NCBI GenBank assembly: GCA_021157815.1
Contig: JAGGVT010000181.1
Location: forward strand, 1 to 45,425
Reading direction: 5' to 3'
Origin: a bacterium
Lineage (GTDB): Bacteria > JAJVIF01 > JAGGVT01
Length of the DNA: 45,425 nucleotides
Shown here: one piece after another, positions 2,848 through 45,425 of the stretch
Layout: the number at the start of each line of letters is the position of its first letter
Numbering within the stretch: the first letter of the stretch is position 1
The notes under the pieces: generated by a model
The model's input: the letters and a program-made list of their open reading frames with translations, nothing else
Databases searched by the model: none
What the model was told of the DNA's origin: nothing
Program-made: the position numbers and the translations under genes

Positions 2848-3033
2848 CGCAATTATAACAACCTCCTGCAGTATCGCGAAACAGGTTATAATATGCGTGA
2901 TGGAAAATCGAACGGATGACAATCGACTTAAACGCTATTTGCTGATTATATCCGGCGGCGCGCTGCCCCGATTTTACAAGCGCCCACGAACATGCGGACA
3001 TTTACATCCGACACCTCCTTTTGCCGAATCATT

Positions 3034-3154
3034 TAGTAAGTTAGTAAGTTAGAAGGTTAGTAAGTTAGAAGGTTAGTAAGTTAGCAGGTTAGTAAGTTAG
3101 TAAGTTAGCAGGTTAGTAAGTTAGTAAGTTAGCAGGTTAGTAAGTTGGTAAGTT
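3034..3154. repeat. 8-bp tandem array K1 (GTTAGTAA / GTTAGCAG)
   Basis: About 15 near-identical 8-bp units of consensus GTTAGYAR in the divergent gap between the glycosyltransferase operon and the comEA-like gene. The period of 8 with TAG in each unit closes all three forward frames, so it is non-coding. A longer array of the same consensus lies at 45164-45393. Confidence 0.9.
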
Positions 3155-3160
3155 TATTCT

Positions 3161-3183
3161 GCTTTTACCTGGGAGCGCTGGAT
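3161..3183 (+). repeat. Solo end of family F
   Basis: CTTTTACCTGGGAGCGCTGG matches the outer arm of the complete F element at 8285-8476. No partner arm is seen nearby, so this is a decayed or truncated copy. Confidence 0.5.
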
Positions 3184-3278
3184 TCCAGATAGTAACTATT
3201 TACAGCATTTCCTCGACTGCTTTTGTGAGTCATCCATCTGATTACTCCCTATAAATGCAATGCTGAACAACGCCTGAT

Positions 3279-15400: not shown

Positions 15401-15416
15401 CCGGTGGAATAATTCC

Positions 15417-15556
15417 ATTAGGTCAAATTACCCATTAGGTCGAATTACCCGTCAGGTCGAATTAACCCGTAAGGTCGAATAAACCCGTTAGGTCAAATTA
15501 CCCGTCAGATCGAATAAACCCGTTAGGTCAAATTACCCGTAAGGTCGAATAAACCC
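15417..15556 (+). repeat. Array J2: eight 17/18-bp units
   Basis: Eight units alternate between 17 bp (GTTAGGTCAAATTACCC) and 18 bp (GTAAGGTCGAATAAACCC) and run directly into GTCATTCCCGCGAAAG. They begin 17 bp after the cdaR stop codon. Confidence 0.85.
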
Positions 15557-15571
15557 GTCATTCCCGCGAAA

Positions 15572-29495: not shown

Positions 29496-31499
29496 TTGGA
29501 GCTATTACAGGTTAATATTTCCTTTAGACAGGATATTTTAAAAAGACACCGGATTCAGGATTTTCGTTTGGATGAACTGATTAAAAAATACCCGTGGGTT
29601 CTAACTCTAAAGAACACGGTTATCGGACTTGCGATAATCGCGGGACTGGCATATTTCATCACGATTTCCGCAAGTGAGGCTAAAAAGGATCTCAAGGATA
29701 TTTTCGCCGAGGAAAAATCGGATGTAACGCTTGTTGAGGATGTGCTGGCAACCGGATACGATTTCGAGGAGGTTATCGAGGATGGTGTAAAGAAGCAATA
29801 TTTCGGAAAAGTTTGGGAATTGGAAAGCCGCATTGTCGAGGAGGGTTCGGACGGCTCAAAGAGTGTCGCGAAGGAAATTAAAGTCCTTCGGATTTACAAA
29901 AAAGGCGAACTCAATCTCATCGGAGTTGGCGATGCTGCTGAATACAACAAAAGCCGCGATGAACTCAAGATGTACGGCAATGTCCATGTTGAAAGCGAGG
30001 ACGGCAGCACAATCCTCAATACCGAAACTCTAATCTGGTCGGATGCAAAGGACAATAAACGGATGAGCTGTCCTGAACCGGTTGAACTATGGGTGGATGA
30101 CAACCATATCCTTGCGGACATGATGTTCAGCGACAAGGATTTGGAACGAATCGATTTCCTCGGGCGTGTCTCAATGTTCAACATTGGAATCGAGCGTGAG
30201 AATTTCATGACACGCGAAGGCTGGATTGATTTCGAGGATGTCAAAACCGAAGGCGAACGCGACCCGGATGATGTCATCAATGTCGAATGTGAATATATCC
30301 ATTATGACAAGATCGAAAAATACATGGAGTGTTATCCGTATGTCCCACACCGTGTAAAAAAACGCCACCGAACATATCTTAAACGCGAGGATTTCAAACC
30401 GGCTGTACCGTTTAAATACCAGCAACAGTCGGCTGAAAAAGAAGAAGATGACCTGATTCCTGAGAGCATTCGTACAACCGGCCTTGAGGGATTTGAAGAT
30501 ATTTTCAAAAAGGATGATGAAAAAAAATCCGATGAAGAAAAAAATATTGAAGAAAAGGAATCATCGGAAAATAAGGAAAAAGAAATAGAACTGCCGGAGA
30601 GAGAGCTTAGAGCATCCCCGGTACCCGAACCTTTCCCCGGCAAATTCCCCGGCAGGCTGGCTCGCCAGGTTTACTGCTGGAAACAGGATAAAAAGATATT
30701 CTCCAACCGCCTTGATATCAACCTGAAACAAAAGATGCTCAAGCCGCGATTCGATGTCTATATCTGGGCTTTTAAAATGGAAAAGGAAGTCAAAAAAAAG
30801 CACGATAAGAAAAATGAGGAACCATCCAAAACTGTAAAAGCGCTGGCAAAAGAGACAACGGAAATATTCGGCGACTTCATGAACGTTTACTGGAAAACGG
30901 ATTTCATCGACGCCTGGGGCGGAATTGAAATCCGCCAGAAGGAAAAATACTTCACTTCGGAAAATATGGTCTATTCCGATGAACTCGGAATCATGGAAGC
31001 TGACGGTGATGTTTTCATGGAGCAGCTCGATGGCGAATGGCTTGAACGCGAAGGCTTGCTTGAGGATATGACTGATGAGGACGCGAAGGAACACGCTAAA
31101 AAGCCAACTGAAATAACCTCGGACGCCATGATCTCTTACGATGATGAAGATTACGTTTATATGATTGGCAATGTGTATATCAAGCAGGAGGAGCAAAACA
31201 TTGTCTCGAATGAGGGTGAATTCTCCGACTCCAAGGACATAATGGTTTTCTGGGGCAATGTCAAATATCGAAACAAGGACGGCGAACGTCTCAATGCGGA
31301 CAAACTAACTCTCTACACGGAGGAAAATCGCTACATCGCCGAGGGAGCCGTGATTGCAAGAAGCCTTGTGCCTGAGGAATACGAGGATGATTTAAGAGAA
31401 ATGGAAGGCGAGGATGTCGAACCCTCCGAAGAAAACCCAGAGCAAAACGCAGATGAGGTTGAGAAAGAAACAAAAAGCGAGGGGGAATCAGGTGATTAA
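29496..31499 (+). CDS. LptC/OstA-like periplasmic protein
   Basis: Predicted bitopic protein of 667 residues (TTG at 29496; a TTG at 29568 with AGGA upstream is an alternative). One N-terminal transmembrane helix (NTVIGLAIIAGLAYFITISA) is followed by an LptC-like segment: LIGVGDAAEYNKSRDELKMY, GNVHVESEDGSTILNTETL and DDNHILADMMFSDKD. After a charged Glu/Lys linker (about 310-370) come OstA/LptA-type repeats (EADGDVFMEQL, YMIGNVYIKQEEQNIVSNEG, VFWGNVKYRNKDGERLNADK). This beta-jellyroll type carries lipopolysaccharide across the periplasm. It is much larger than LptC or LptA (about 190 residues each), as if both were joined. lptB is not in the window. Confidence 0.7.
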   Translation: MELLQVNISFRQDILKRHRIQDFRLDELIKKYPWVLTLKNTVIGLAIIAGLAYFITISASEAKKDLKDIFAEEKSDVTLVEDVLATGYDFEEVIEDGVKKQYFGKVWELESRIVEEGSDGSKSVAKEIKVLRIYKKGELNLIGVGDAAEYNKSRDELKMYGNVHVESEDGSTILNTETLIWSDAKDNKRMSCPEPVELWVDDNHILADMMFSDKDLERIDFLGRVSMFNIGIERENFMTREGWIDFEDVKTEGERDPDDVINVECEYIHYDKIEKYMECYPYVPHRVKKRHRTYLKREDFKPAVPFKYQQQSAEKEEDDLIPESIRTTGLEGFEDIFKKDDEKKSDEEKNIEEKESSENKEKEIELPERELRASPVPEPFPGKFPGRLARQVYCWKQDKKIFSNRLDINLKQKMLKPRFDVYIWAFKMEKEVKKKHDKKNEEPSKTVKALAKETTEIFGDFMNVYWKTDFIDAWGGIEIRQKEKYFTSENMVYSDELGIMEADGDVFMEQLDGEWLEREGLLEDMTDEDAKEHAKKPTEITSDAMISYDDEDYVYMIGNVYIKQEEQNIVSNEGEFSDSKDIMVFWGNVKYRNKDGERLNADKLTLYTEENRYIAEGAVIARSLVPEEYEDDLREMEGEDVEPSEENPEQNADEVEKETKSEGESGD

Positions 31500-31576
31500 T
31501 TTTCCAAATAAACAAATAACAGAGGGTTTTAACCCTCTGCTTTTCACTCGCTCAATAATCCTGCTCATCACTCGCT

Positions 31577-31862
31577 TTAGAGCCTGTCGGAAAAGCATGT
31601 TGATTTTCAAACATACTATTCTTCTGATAGCCCTCGGGTGCCGCCCACATATCACGTCTTTTTGTGATTTGTGGGTGAAACGTGCAAATTCGCAACATTT
31701 CACCCATAAAGCCCGGAGGGCTGTATGGGCGGCACCCGATTCCCCTTCGCAAGTATATAGATCAGATATATTGTTTACAAATGTAAAAAAATCTCCCCCC
31801 GCTCGCGGGGGGACCAAGGGGGGAATGAGATATAAAAAACCCTTTTCCGGCAGGCTCTTTAA
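31577..31862 (+). repeat. Family D element 1 containing C element 1
   Basis: The inverted ends are AGAGCCTGTCGGAAAAG and CTTTTCCGGCAGGCTCTTT. Inside are C element 1 (31635-31738) and a segment shared with D element 2 (CTTCGCAAGTATATAGATCA, CTCCCCCCGCTCGCGGGGGG). An 18-bp direct repeat TTTAACCCTCTGCTTTTC (31528-31545 and 31858-31875) brackets it with a 330-bp offset, which is a multiple of three. It leaves the reading frame of the second OstA-like gene open. Confidence 0.7.
31635..31738 (+). repeat. Family C element 1
   Basis: The outer stem CGGGTGCCGCCCA pairs with TGGGCGGCACCCG. Inside are three hairpins: ATCACG..TGTGAT, TGGGTGAAA..TTTCACCCA, and GCCC-GGA-GGGC. The other copies change both sides of these stems together. 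Confidence 0.85.
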
Positions 31863-33720
31863 CCCTCTGCTTTTCCATTACGTAATCCTCATTGCGATAT
31901 TCCTGCTTGCATTTTCAATTTGCGCTTTTGCAGATGATGAATCATCGGGCGATTTACAAACACAACCAAACCGGGGCTCATCAATAGTTCCACAAAAACG
32001 AGAAAAGGAAGAAAAGAAACAGGAAAAGGAGATTATTGAGGAAGTGCCATCTGAGGAAGAAAAATCAGAAAACGAAGAGGAAGAGAAAAGCGAGATTGAT
32101 AAACCGAAAGACGATTCGGATTTATACGGCACTTACTCCGATGGTATGACCCATGGTCCACCGCCTTTGGATCCAAATCAGCGCGACCTCGACCGCCTGT
32201 TCGAACAAACCAAACAAGAGGGCAGGGGCAGCCTTCAGGATGTGCTTCAGCAACATGACGGCACTAATTTCCAGAAACCGGAATCATTTCCGCCAACCGA
32301 TATGATGGGCCCATTCCCTCCAGACGACGGCATCATGGGACCACCGCCACAAGACGATTTTGTTGGGCCTCCACCACTGCCTGAAATAAATATCGAGGGC
32401 ATGGATAAATGGGACTTCATAGGGCCTCCACTGCCTGAGCCTGACCAGATTGAATCTGAATTTGTTGAGGAAGAGATTCCTCAAATCGAAATAGAATTCG
32501 AGGACACGCTCCCACCCGAGGACAGAAAATTTGTCGATTTGAGCGCGGATAAAATCACACGCGACAAACTCAATCACACTGTGTTTCTTGAGGGAAACTC
32601 AAAAGTTGTTTATGAAGATGTAATTATCCTCAGCGAATTCTGCGAGTTTAACGACGATGAAGAGTGGGGTAAATTCTGGGGCCCGACAGGTGTGCTGTCT
32701 GAAAGCGAGGACGGCATCTCAAAGTCTGAACGCCTCGAAGCGTATTTCAAGGAAAAGAAAGCGTACCTGCATGAGAATGTTGAGGTATTCGTTTACGGCC
32801 GCGAATATGAAAACGAGCTGGAAGAGGACGCTCCCAAAAAGGACAGAGTAAAACGCGCGCTGGGGCAGGACGACACAACCATTTACTGCGACGAGGTCAT
32901 TTACAACTGGGGAGAAAAAACATTCTTCGCATGGGTGGAGGATTCTGAAATCGTGAAACTCATTCAGGATGGCCGTTACGCTCACGCTCTTGCCATGTAT
33001 CATGAAAGGGAAACTGAACTGACGGTGCTTGAAGGCAAAGTCGAATTGTGGCAGAAGGATGGTGACTGGCTTTTTGACAGGGATGTTGTTACCGACAAGG
33101 AGGACAATTGGGCTAACGCGCTCTTGCGTCCTGAAACGACAGTCACATGCGACCTGCTTGAATCCCACGGTGAGGAGGAAACAACCCTCCTTGACGGCAA
33201 TGTGCTGGCCGTTCAGAAAAATAAAAGAAGCAGCGCTGACAAGGTCGTTAATGACGACAAGGAAAAACTGCTGACCGCTGAGGGAAATGTCAAATATCAC
33301 CATGACAACGGCGACTGGCTTGTGGAATGGGATATCGTTGACCCGGAAGAGGAAAGCGAGGAAACAATGGAGGATTTGAAAAAAGCTGCTGATGGCCAGG
33401 CTGACAAGTTCATTTTATGGACTGAAGATGAGGATTTCGAGGCTGAGGGCAATGTGAAAGCCTGGCAGGAACATCAGGAGGCCTCGATGGATAAAGCCGT
33501 TTACACAAAGGAATTCGACAGGCTTCAAGTTTTCGGCAACGTTAAATTCGCGCGTGAATCCAAACATGACCTTCTTAGCGACGAGGGAATCCTCTGGCTG
33601 ACAACCAAAGTTTATGAGGCTTTCGGAAATGTCAAATCAAAAGGAAAAATCGATGTGGAAGAGGAGATGGAAAAAATAAAAGAGGAAAAGGAAGACAAGC
33701 AAGAGGAGAAATCGGAATAG
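31825..33720 (+). CDS. OstA/LptA-repeat periplasmic protein with repeat-derived 5' end
   Basis: Exported protein of 631 residues from the ATG at 31825. The signal peptide has n-region MRYKKPFSGRLFN, core YVILIAIFLLAFSI and cleavage after CAFA. After an acidic, Pro-rich linker (GPPPQDDFVGPPPLPE) come at least six OstA repeats marked by LEGNSKVVYED, HENVEVFVYG, LEGKVELWQKDGDW, LDGNVLAVQ, AEGNVKYHHDNGDW and VFGNVKFA. These form the periplasmic beta-taco fold for lipopolysaccharide transport. The ancestral start was probably GTG at 31492, with GAGGGGG upstream, overlapping the previous gene stop. A D element now separates that start from the signal peptide but keeps the frame open. AAGG five bases before the new ATG could serve as ribosome site. 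Confidence 0.7.
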   Translation: MRYKKPFSGRLFNPLLFHYVILIAIFLLAFSICAFADDESSGDLQTQPNRGSSIVPQKREKEEKKQEKEIIEEVPSEEEKSENEEEEKSEIDKPKDDSDLYGTYSDGMTHGPPPLDPNQRDLDRLFEQTKQEGRGSLQDVLQQHDGTNFQKPESFPPTDMMGPFPPDDGIMGPPPQDDFVGPPPLPEINIEGMDKWDFIGPPLPEPDQIESEFVEEEIPQIEIEFEDTLPPEDRKFVDLSADKITRDKLNHTVFLEGNSKVVYEDVIILSEFCEFNDDEEWGKFWGPTGVLSESEDGISKSERLEAYFKEKKAYLHENVEVFVYGREYENELEEDAPKKDRVKRALGQDDTTIYCDEVIYNWGEKTFFAWVEDSEIVKLIQDGRYAHALAMYHERETELTVLEGKVELWQKDGDWLFDRDVVTDKEDNWANALLRPETTVTCDLLESHGEEETTLLDGNVLAVQKNKRSSADKVVNDDKEKLLTAEGNVKYHHDNGDWLVEWDIVDPEEESEETMEDLKKAADGQADKFILWTEDEDFEAEGNVKAWQEHQEASMDKAVYTKEFDRLQVFGNVKFARESKHDLLSDEGILWLTTKVYEAFGNVKSKGKIDVEEEMEKIKEEKEDKQEEKSE

Positions 33721-33748
33721 CGCTATCATGAAATAACACCATGCTTTA

Positions 33749-33914
33749 GGGGCTGTTGAAAAACACTTGGTTATACGGATAAACCATTATATGTAGGGGC
33801 GTTGCTTGTTGCACCCCGGCGTGCCGCATTAGAAATGGCAACTTCAGGGCGCAGCAAGCGGCGACCCTACGATGGGTTTGTTATTTTTATTTGTCGGGGT
33901 TTTTCAACAAGCCC
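33749..33914 (+). repeat. A' element (166 bp)
   Basis: It has the same outer ends as family A (GGGGCTGTTGAAAAA) but a different interior (GCCGCATTAGAAATGGCAAC). It splits the palindrome CACCATGC-TTTA-GCATGGTG in its loop. A related unsplit palindrome, GCCATGCTTTAGCGTGGTGC, is at 36741-36760. Confidence 0.8.
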
Positions 33915-33982
33915 TTTAGCATGGTGCCTGCTAAAAACCTATAACCAGCCTGGCGCCACTCACAACCAAAAAGAATAATTAC

Positions 33983-34228
33983 GTCATTCCCGCGAAAGAG
34001 TCTGTCGGGAAAGGCGCCGCAATCAAGTTCCCCCCCCACCCCAGCCCTCCCCGCGAGCGGGGAGGGAGAGTGTTGTTGCTCCCCTTCGCAAGTATATAGA
34101 TCAGATATATTGTTTACAAATGCAAAAAAATCTCCCCCCGCTCGCGGGGGGATTAAGGGGGGGTGAGATATAAAAACAACCTTTTCCGACAGATTCTTTC
34201 GCGGGAATGACGTGTTATCCAACCTAAC
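33983..34228. repeat. H-type ends enclosing D element 2, plus one 17-bp unit
   Basis: The outer ends GTCATTCCCGCGAAAG and CTTTCGCGGGAATGAC enclose D ends (AGTCTGTCGGGAAAGG and CCTTTTCCGACAGATTCTTT) and the D interior shared with 31741-31836. On the right, 34212-34228 is a single 17-mer (minus strand GTTAGGTTGGATAACAC) of the J type. Confidence 0.65.
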
Positions 34229-35593: not shown

Positions 35594-35626
35594 TTGCCAG
35601 GAACCAAATGTGTTTTTGAGGAGCTC

Positions 35627-35728
35627 GGGTGCCGCCCACACATCACGTCTTTTTGTGATTTGTGGGTGATTACTGCGACGTCATGCAATATCACCCATAA
35701 AACCGAGACGGTTGTATGGGCGGCACCC
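35627..35728 (+). repeat. Family C element 2
   Basis: Outer stem GGGTGCCGCCCA with TGGGCGGCACCC. The third hairpin is ACCG-AGA-CGGT, so both strands differ from copies 1 and 3 while pairing is kept. It lies between the dehydrogenase stop and the HD-protein start. Confidence 0.85.
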
Positions 35729-35773
35729 AAGCGCTATATTTACGTAACAACAAAACAACAGGAATTCGAAACA

Positions 35774-36346
35774 ATGGAAGAAAAAGACATCGAGCTATTA
35801 TTAAAAAAACAACTGAGCGCAATCAAAGATGAAAACCTTCGCGAGAAAGTAGTGGAAACATGGATATTCGCTTGCGGGCATGGCAACTGGAAATCAATCG
35901 ATGAGCTAAAGAAAATCCCGTTTACACTTCTGACTGACACGCGCGGCGTAAGTTTTATCGAGCACACAATCGCTGTAACCGAGGGCGCGGTCGCGCTGGG
36001 GAAAGCTCAGGTTGAGAATTACGCGAACATGCCATATGAAATCAATTTCGATTATCTGTACGCCGGCGGACTTCTCCACGATGTCGGCAAGCTGATGGAG
36101 ATTGAACCTGACGGCAGCGGTGGATACCAAAAAAGCCTCGCGGGTAAATATATGCGCCACCCGATTTCCGGCGCGATTATCGCTGCGCAGGTTGGAATCC
36201 CCGAACCGGTTTTGAATATAATCATCTGCCACGCGAAAGAGGGCGATGGCCGTCCGCAGGTGGTCGAGGCCGTTTTGGTTCACCAGGCAGATTTCGCAAC
36301 GTTCAATCCGCTTGTCATGAAACAAAACGGATTATTGATTGAGTAA
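35774..36346 (+). CDS. HD-domain phosphohydrolase
   Basis: 190-residue metal-dependent HD-superfamily protein, probably a phosphohydrolase of a nucleotide or signalling molecule; the substrate is unknown. The metal ligands are visible in order: His of IEHTIAVT, His-Asp of GGLLHDVGKL, His of MRHPISGA, His of IICHAKEG and Asp of VHQADFATF. I used the ATG of MEEKDIELL; the open frame extends upstream only because the C element has no stop in that frame. Its position among TCA-type genes suggests a housekeeping or regulatory role but does not define it. Confidence 0.8.
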   Translation: MEEKDIELLLKKQLSAIKDENLREKVVETWIFACGHGNWKSIDELKKIPFTLLTDTRGVSFIEHTIAVTEGAVALGKAQVENYANMPYEINFDYLYAGGLLHDVGKLMEIEPDGSGGYQKSLAGKYMRHPISGAIIAAQVGIPEPVLNIIICHAKEGDGRPQVVEAVLVHQADFATFNPLVMKQNGLLIE

Positions 36347-44384: not shown

Positions 44385-45164
44385 ATGCTGCGCGAAAATG
44401 CTGAAATAATTTCAAACGATAACATCGGCGCCGAATTGTTTTCCATGCGGGTTAAATCATCCGCAATCGCGCGAAACTGGCGTCCGGGACAGTTTGTTCA
44501 TATTCTGCCGCCTGTCAATACCGGCAAACCGCCAATGCTGCGGCGGCCTATCAGCATCCTTGCCTCACAAAATGATGAATTTGAATTTATCTATCGTGTC
44601 GCAGGTGAGGGAACATCGCTCATATCACAAATGAAACCCAGCGACACGCTCGATATAATCGGCCCTCTGGGAAACGGATTCGACAACATCCCCGATTCGC
44701 AGGGATTGCACATTCTAATTGGCGGCGGAGTAGGCGCTCCCCCAATGATTGCGCTGGCAAGATTGCTTCATGAGAAAAAACTCGATGTCGAATTCTACCA
44801 AGGCGCGAAAGATGCCAGCGATTTGATTCTTAACAACGAAATGGAAAACTCGGAATTTAAATATCACGTAACAACCGAGGATGGCTCAATCGGGCATAAG
44901 GGACTTGTTATCGATATCCTGCCAGAGAATACAAAACAAATCGCGGCGGTTTACGCATGCGGCCCAATCGGAATGATGAAAGCAATACTCAAATGGCGCG
45001 ATAACGCCGGATTCCCATATTTCGTTTCAATCGAAAACAAGATGGCATGCGGAATTGGAGTCTGCCTCGGATGCAGTGCGCCAACAGTCGATGGCAAATA
45101 TATCCGCACCTGCATCGATGGCCCGGTTTTCAACGCAGACATCCTTGACTGGGAAAAGATATAG
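44385..45164 (+). CDS. pyrK: Dihydroorotate dehydrogenase electron-transfer subunit PyrK
   Basis: 259-residue iron-sulphur flavoprotein that passes electrons from dihydroorotate dehydrogenase (PyrD, type 1B) to NAD in pyrimidine synthesis. The FAD motif RRPISI, the loop GPLGNGF, the nucleotide-binding GGGVGAPPM, and the [2Fe-2S] cysteines MACGIGVCLGCSAP and YIRTCIDGPVF are all seen. pyrD would be expected next, but an 8-bp tandem array starts at the stop codon. Related ferredoxin-reductase-like subunits (e.g. of sulfide dehydrogenase) are a less likely alternative. Confidence 0.9.
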   Translation: MLRENAEIISNDNIGAELFSMRVKSSAIARNWRPGQFVHILPPVNTGKPPMLRRPISILASQNDEFEFIYRVAGEGTSLISQMKPSDTLDIIGPLGNGFDNIPDSQGLHILIGGGVGAPPMIALARLLHEKKLDVEFYQGAKDASDLILNNEMENSEFKYHVTTEDGSIGHKGLVIDILPENTKQIAAVYACGPIGMMKAILKWRDNAGFPYFVSIENKMACGIGVCLGCSAPTVDGKYIRTCIDGPVFNADILDWEKI

Positions 45165-45393
45165 TTAGCAAGTTAGCAGGTTGGCAGGTTAGCAGGTTAG
45201 CAGGTTAGTAGGTTGGCAGGTTGGCAGGTTAGTAGGTTGGCAGGTTGGCAGGTTAGCAGGTTAGCAGGTTAGTAGGTTAGCAAGTTAGCAAGTTAGCAAG
45301 TTAGCAGGTTAGCAGGTTAGTAGGTTAGCAGGTTAGCAGGTTAGCAGGTTGGCAGGTTAGCAGGTTAGCAGGTTAGTAGAGTAGCAGGTTAGG
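45164..45393. repeat. 8-bp tandem array K2 (GTTAGCAG)
   Basis: About 28 units of GTTAGCAG with GTTGGCAG, GTTAGTAG and GTTAGCAA variants, starting on the last base of the pyrK stop codon. The same consensus is used in array K1 at 3034-3154. Confidence 0.9.
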
Positions 45394-45425
45394 TTGATTT
45401 TCAAATATAGAATTCTCCTGTTAAC

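Follow-up and report, generated by a model that had tools for sequence, protein, structure and literature searches.

The closest described precedent for a mobile repeat at the start of an exported protein is YPO1552 of Yersinia pestis, in which the MITE RU-2 encodes residues 1 to 30, including part of the signal peptide (Delihas 2007, PMC2759123; PMC2229807). YPO1552 is a predicted exported protein, and the signal sequences of its homologues are unrelated to RU-2 (PMC2759123; PMC2229807). In Rickettsia, small palindromic elements with an open frame are found inserted in frame in conserved genes (PMC10969869; PMC2229807). A preference for palindromic targets has been described as well: those of YPAL span or adjoin dyad symmetry (PMC2759123; PMC2229807), and IS1272, of the IS1182 family, inserts at inverted-repeat stem-loop targets (PMC5678879). 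Here we analyzed a locus of an uncultured bacterium at which the debris of short mobile repeats probably supplies, judging from the sequence, both the start codon of an LptA-like gene and the beginning of its export signal.

The locus lies in a window of 45,425 nucleotides, the whole stretch of DNA that was analyzed, and consists of two neighboring genes separated by repeats (Table 1). The product of the upstream gene matched the Pfam models LptC (E=3.6e-11) and LptD_N (E=2.1e-8) and the NCBIfam model LptC_YrbK (E=3.4e-18). The product of the downstream gene matched Pfam LptD_N over the gathering score (E=7e-7) and NCBIfam LptA with 27 bits, under the cut-off of 71.7, and for this reason we call it LptA-like only. 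A search against solved structures gave only chance-level matches. The downstream frame is open throughout from 31492 to 33720; within it, ATG 31825 opens the sequence MRYKKPFSGRLFNPLLFHYVILIAIFLLAFSICAFA-DDE, while the GTG at 31492 overlaps the upstream stop (TAA 31497-31499). The letters and coordinates reported for this region in the first-pass annotation were all found in the sequence.

Table 1. Features of the LptC-like/LptA-like gene boundary and the reference repeat copy, in window coordinates
Feature	Position	Strand	Remark
LptC-like upstream gene; LptA/OstA-type domain at the C terminus	29496..31499	+	Own start uncertain
Probable ancestral start: AGGGGG (31480-31485), 6 nt, GTG 31492	31480..31494	+	8-nt overlap with the upstream stop
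Alternative long frame from GTG 31492	31492..33720	+	742 aa; the ~110 added residues mostly repeat-derived
Intact palindrome E1 with CAGAGGGTTTTAACCCTCTG core, hairpin	31518..31541	.	Terminator-like on both strands (scan)
TTTA left of the insert	31576..31579	.	Same letters at 31858-31861
Left part of MITE subfamily D1, TIR GAGCCTGTCGG at its start	31580..31740	+	C palindrome at ~31634-31739
Right part of MITE subfamily D2, TIR CCGGCAGGCTC at its end	31741..31857	+	
SD-like run and ATG, AAGGGGGG-A-ATG	31816..31827	+	Outward-facing, carried by D2
LptA-like gene as read from ATG 31825	31825..33720	+	631 aa, with signal peptide MRYKKPFSGRLFNPLLFHYVILIAIFLLAFSICAFA
Second palindrome (E2), right arm	31858..31876	+	Now encodes FNPLLF; same arm as E1
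Full-length D2 copy at the center of a GTCATTCCCGCGAAA palindrome	33998..34196	+	Reference copy

The LptA-like gene was found in all four genomes of this phylum in the collection. As the first-pass annotation had suggested, we compared orthologues lacking the insert: the three relatives carry the same gene pair, and their LptA-like proteins have an N terminus of their own, free of the repeat. In each of them the downstream start lies at or overlaps the upstream stop, as TGATG in G002, as ATGA in G003 and as an ATG directly after the upstream TAA in G001, where the gene upstream of this TAA appears frameshifted in the assembly. The nearest orthologues are only ~23-32% identical over the alignment, and none of the four genomes is a close relative without the insert. 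This abutting or overlapping layout, together with a good SD sequence, indicates that GTG 31492 is probably the ancestral start, and the G-rich upstream run and stop overlap that had been noted for it are indeed present. Because this start fits the pattern of the relatives, the repeats were probably added after divergence from G001, G002 and G003. The D2 repeat described below was not found in G001 or G002, and G003 gave a 40-bp match only.

The insert itself comprises 278 bp (31580-31857) with TTTA on either side, and together with one TTTA it amounts to 282 bp, a number divisible by three. It had initially been described as one D element carrying a nested C element. However, when the insert was searched against the genome, the only full-length match was the insert itself. 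About positions 1 to 161 of the query matched many other copies, mostly at 82-93%, whereas positions 162 to 278 matched D2, which has about 40 matches in the genome, with 93% to the reference copy. Since every other copy matches one part and never both, the insert is, on this pattern of matches, the left part of D1 joined to the right part of D2, and the single element with a nested C is ruled out. D1 and D2 are each present in many copies with common ends of the GAGCCTGTCGGGAAAG type, a pattern with 97 matches in the genome versus 0 in the control. Both have the hallmarks of MITEs: they are short (reference copies of 197 bp for D1 and 199 bp for D2), multicopy and bounded by inverted ends, they carry no transposase, and most copies show short TTTA/TTAA-type repeats and sites between palindrome arms. 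IS1182-like transposase fragments are present in the genome, none of them above the curated cut-off. One fragment with identifiable ends has a TIR (GGGCTGTTGAAAAA) that resembles that of D (GAGCCTGTCGGGAAAG) but differs from it, and no IS1182-family member with a TIR identical to the D ends was found in this genome.

The sequence TTTAACCCTCTGCTTTTC occurs at 31528 and recurs 330 bp later at 31858, so that the letters and the spacing given for this direct repeat are correct. A reading of it as a 330-bp target duplication was rejected, since the 18 bp form one arm of a palindrome, AGCAGAGGGTT..AACCCTCTGCT, that is dispersed over the genome (70 matches for the arm versus 0 with a reversed-pattern control). 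The palindrome is intact at E1, whose predicted RNA fold has a z score of -5.1, and arms of the E2 type also flank D copies elsewhere on their right-hand side. Among 33 distinct near-full D copies, the flanks were complementary (at least 8 of 10 positions) in 61%, versus 22% for shuffled flanks, indicating that these MITEs habitually sit at the center of short palindromes. The flanks of the insert are mutually mismatched (left, CACTCGCTTTA; right, TTTAACCCTCTGC) and, in combination with the chimeric interior, this suggests two neighboring insertions that were later fused by a deletion.

Mismatched left and right palindrome arms were also seen at another D2 copy (L079, G000:C67:4700-6600), where they suggest recombination between dispersed copies. 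Separately, a repeat at window positions 33740-33930, with ends GGGGCTGTTGAAAAA/TTTTTCAACAAGCCC, lies between CACCATGCTTTA and TTTAGCATGGTG and represents a second MITE family that is likewise located at a palindrome center. Tandem arrays are present in the window as well, with an 8-bp period close to both of its ends (2985-3210 and 45125-45425) and with 17/18-bp units (ACCCGTTAGGTCGAATA-like) at 15413-15570, the latter ending at another repeat.

The history that we consider somewhat more probable than all others together is the following. The related palindrome-targeting MITEs D1 and D2 would have inserted at the boundary between the LptC-like and LptA-like genes and would then have been fused by internal deletion or recombination. 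Their remnant, with the arms of the small palindromes, would now separate both genes and stand in for the original 5' end of the downstream one. Of the signal peptide, the native core, HYVILIAIFLLAFSICAFA, would have been kept, preceded by repeat DNA only, and ATG 31825 inside D2, as the most likely start, would have replaced translational coupling at GTG 31492. The order of events, the expression of the gene and the start in use are the parts of this best explanation that we infer.

From 31828 to the end of the signal core, the frame contains no ATG, GTG or TTG, and thus the n-region must be repeat-derived. Whichever start serves, the encoded n-region is composed of MRYKKPFSGRL, contributed by D2, and FNPLLF, contributed by the palindrome arm. 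There is thus good support for the claim that a repeat has rewritten an envelope gene at its 5' end, both from the layout in the relatives and from the finding that, outside the repeats, only GTG 31492 could start the signal peptide. As for the signal peptide proposed to begin at ATG 31825, its basic part is confirmed as repeat-derived, and the use of this ATG as the start is plausible from the sequence.

We compared both candidate starts by their predicted pairing with an anti-SD sequence, which was assumed because the 16S sequence of this genome ends before its 3' end. GTG 31492 gave -10.7 kcal/mol with a spacing of 5 (duplexfold) and ATG 31825 gave -10.9 kcal/mol with a spacing of just 0-2 nt; by comparison, only 5% of the window's ATGs pair at -8.0 kcal/mol or better. 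The spacing at the GTG is normal, whereas the SD of ATG 31825 is too close to its codon. This second SD may also be hidden by folding, as the G-run before ATG 31825 pairs with CCCCUU at 31742-31747 in the predicted fold. The D2 part of the insert is one base shorter than the D2 consensus, AAGGGGGGGATGAGATATAAAAACAAC, as is one other copy (L026), and this loss brings ATG 31825 in frame. A promoter scan revealed no rightward promoter above chance within the insert. On balance, we lean toward ATG 31825 as the working start rather than the long form, and both products, from ATG 31825 and from GTG 31492, may be made.

Translation from GTG 31492 through the whole MITE, still coupled to the upstream gene and giving a protein of 742 aa with ~110 extra residues before the signal, is the strongest competitor, even if we consider it doubtful. 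Its SD is as strong as that of ATG 31825 and better placed, and the relatives use an overlapping start. Furthermore, the 282 bp are divisible by three and the frame is open, including codon 31693, an openness that use of the ATG alone would not require. Of 21 aligned repeat copies, 8 have a stop at this codon, the only such codon in this frame. However, a cleavable signal would then lie >120 residues from the N terminus, and codon usage is intergenic-like within the MITE part, becoming of the coding type from the signal peptide on and strongly so through the gene body. Openness is also cheap in stop-poor repeats: because the repeat consensus contains few stops in this frame, the open frame that the first-pass annotation had correctly observed is weak evidence for coding. 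One minus-strand frame is open across the region too, and under a first-order Markov model of the region the frame from GTG 31492 was open in 1.2% of the trials. We thus set the open frame aside as a proof of coding.

It is less likely still that the LptA-like gene is a young pseudogene, left with no effective start after the insertion. In favor of this, the coupled start has been displaced by 333 nt, with the terminator-like E1 and an SD of poor spacing in the intervening stretch. The gene body, however, is intact with strong coding codon usage, no second full copy was found in this 91%-complete genome, and the gene is present in all four phylum genomes. Joining of two MITE copies during short-read metagenome assembly is very improbable. 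The chimera is unique among the matches and G000 is a draft of 221 contigs, but both flanking genes are neighbors in three relatives, and no fetched copy shares more than 43 bp of uninterrupted identity with the region. Together these make a misassembly unlikely. Finally, the gene might begin past the repeats at a native codon of a non-canonical type (ATT, CTG or similar), which would suit the native h-region near the repeat border. We give this hardly any credence, as no SD-like sequence was seen before such codons and the protein would lack its basic n-region.

A broader idea is that D2 acts as a mobile translation-start module, its outward SD-like run and ATG capturing downstream frames. 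The LptA-like gene would then be a successful D2 capture, in which coupling was exchanged for an independent start. We regard this as a long shot. Among 21 other D2 right ends, 15 kept an ATG or GTG at the site (most D2 copies carry AAGGGGGGGATGAGATATAAAAACAAC), and 14 of these 15 readings end within 2-59 codons; the exception, L051, extends over 334 aa and has its own ATG further downstream. Across 74 element copies, full or partial, about ten ORFs begin inside the element and extend at least 80 aa out of it. The clearest cases, L086 and L013, were rejected as MITE-born starts, since a better native start lies outside the element in both; L116 is a further candidate. In L086 (G000:C123:4700-6800, 868-1057), the outward ATG of D2 opens a reading of 334 aa that shares its frame with a predicted secreted protein, whose own downstream ATG begins MKKLKIPII..., and an N-terminal extension from D2 is possible. 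In L013 (G000:C36:12500-13700), a D1 copy lies directly 5' of an AroA-like gene with a native ATG outside the element, and the frame is open through part of D1. A C palindrome at window positions 35624-35728 is also located just 5' of, and in frame with, a gene (frame 35594-36346), and a native ATG follows it.

The locus thus represents a clean case in which a conserved envelope-transport gene has its 5' end replaced by mobile-repeat debris. An ancestral-type start is still visible beside the outward-facing, repeat-borne one, and this makes a simple two-start test possible. It is also a warning for annotation, as gene callers may pick a frame of 742 or 768 aa and count ~110 repeat-derived residues as protein.

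Events of this kind are already known from YPO1552/RU-2 and from Rickettsia, to which the LptA-like gene adds a clear new case. As in YPO1552, a MITE probably encodes the N terminus and part of the signal peptide of a predicted exported protein. However, RU-2 brings its own hydrophobic cluster, whereas the repeats at the LptA-like gene contribute a basic n-region to a hydrophobic core that is still the native one. Unlike RU-2, moreover, the present element combines two subfamilies in one chimera, and the start that it displaces is a coupled one within a conserved Lpt pair. The palindromic elements of Rickettsia resemble the long reading from GTG 31492, but they bring a conserved peptide and often lie within genes, while D2 readings mostly end within a few dozen codons. 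Finally, IS1272 shares with D1 and D2 the targeting of palindromes, with the difference that IS1272 replaces the target stem-loop, whereas D1 and D2 keep both arms.
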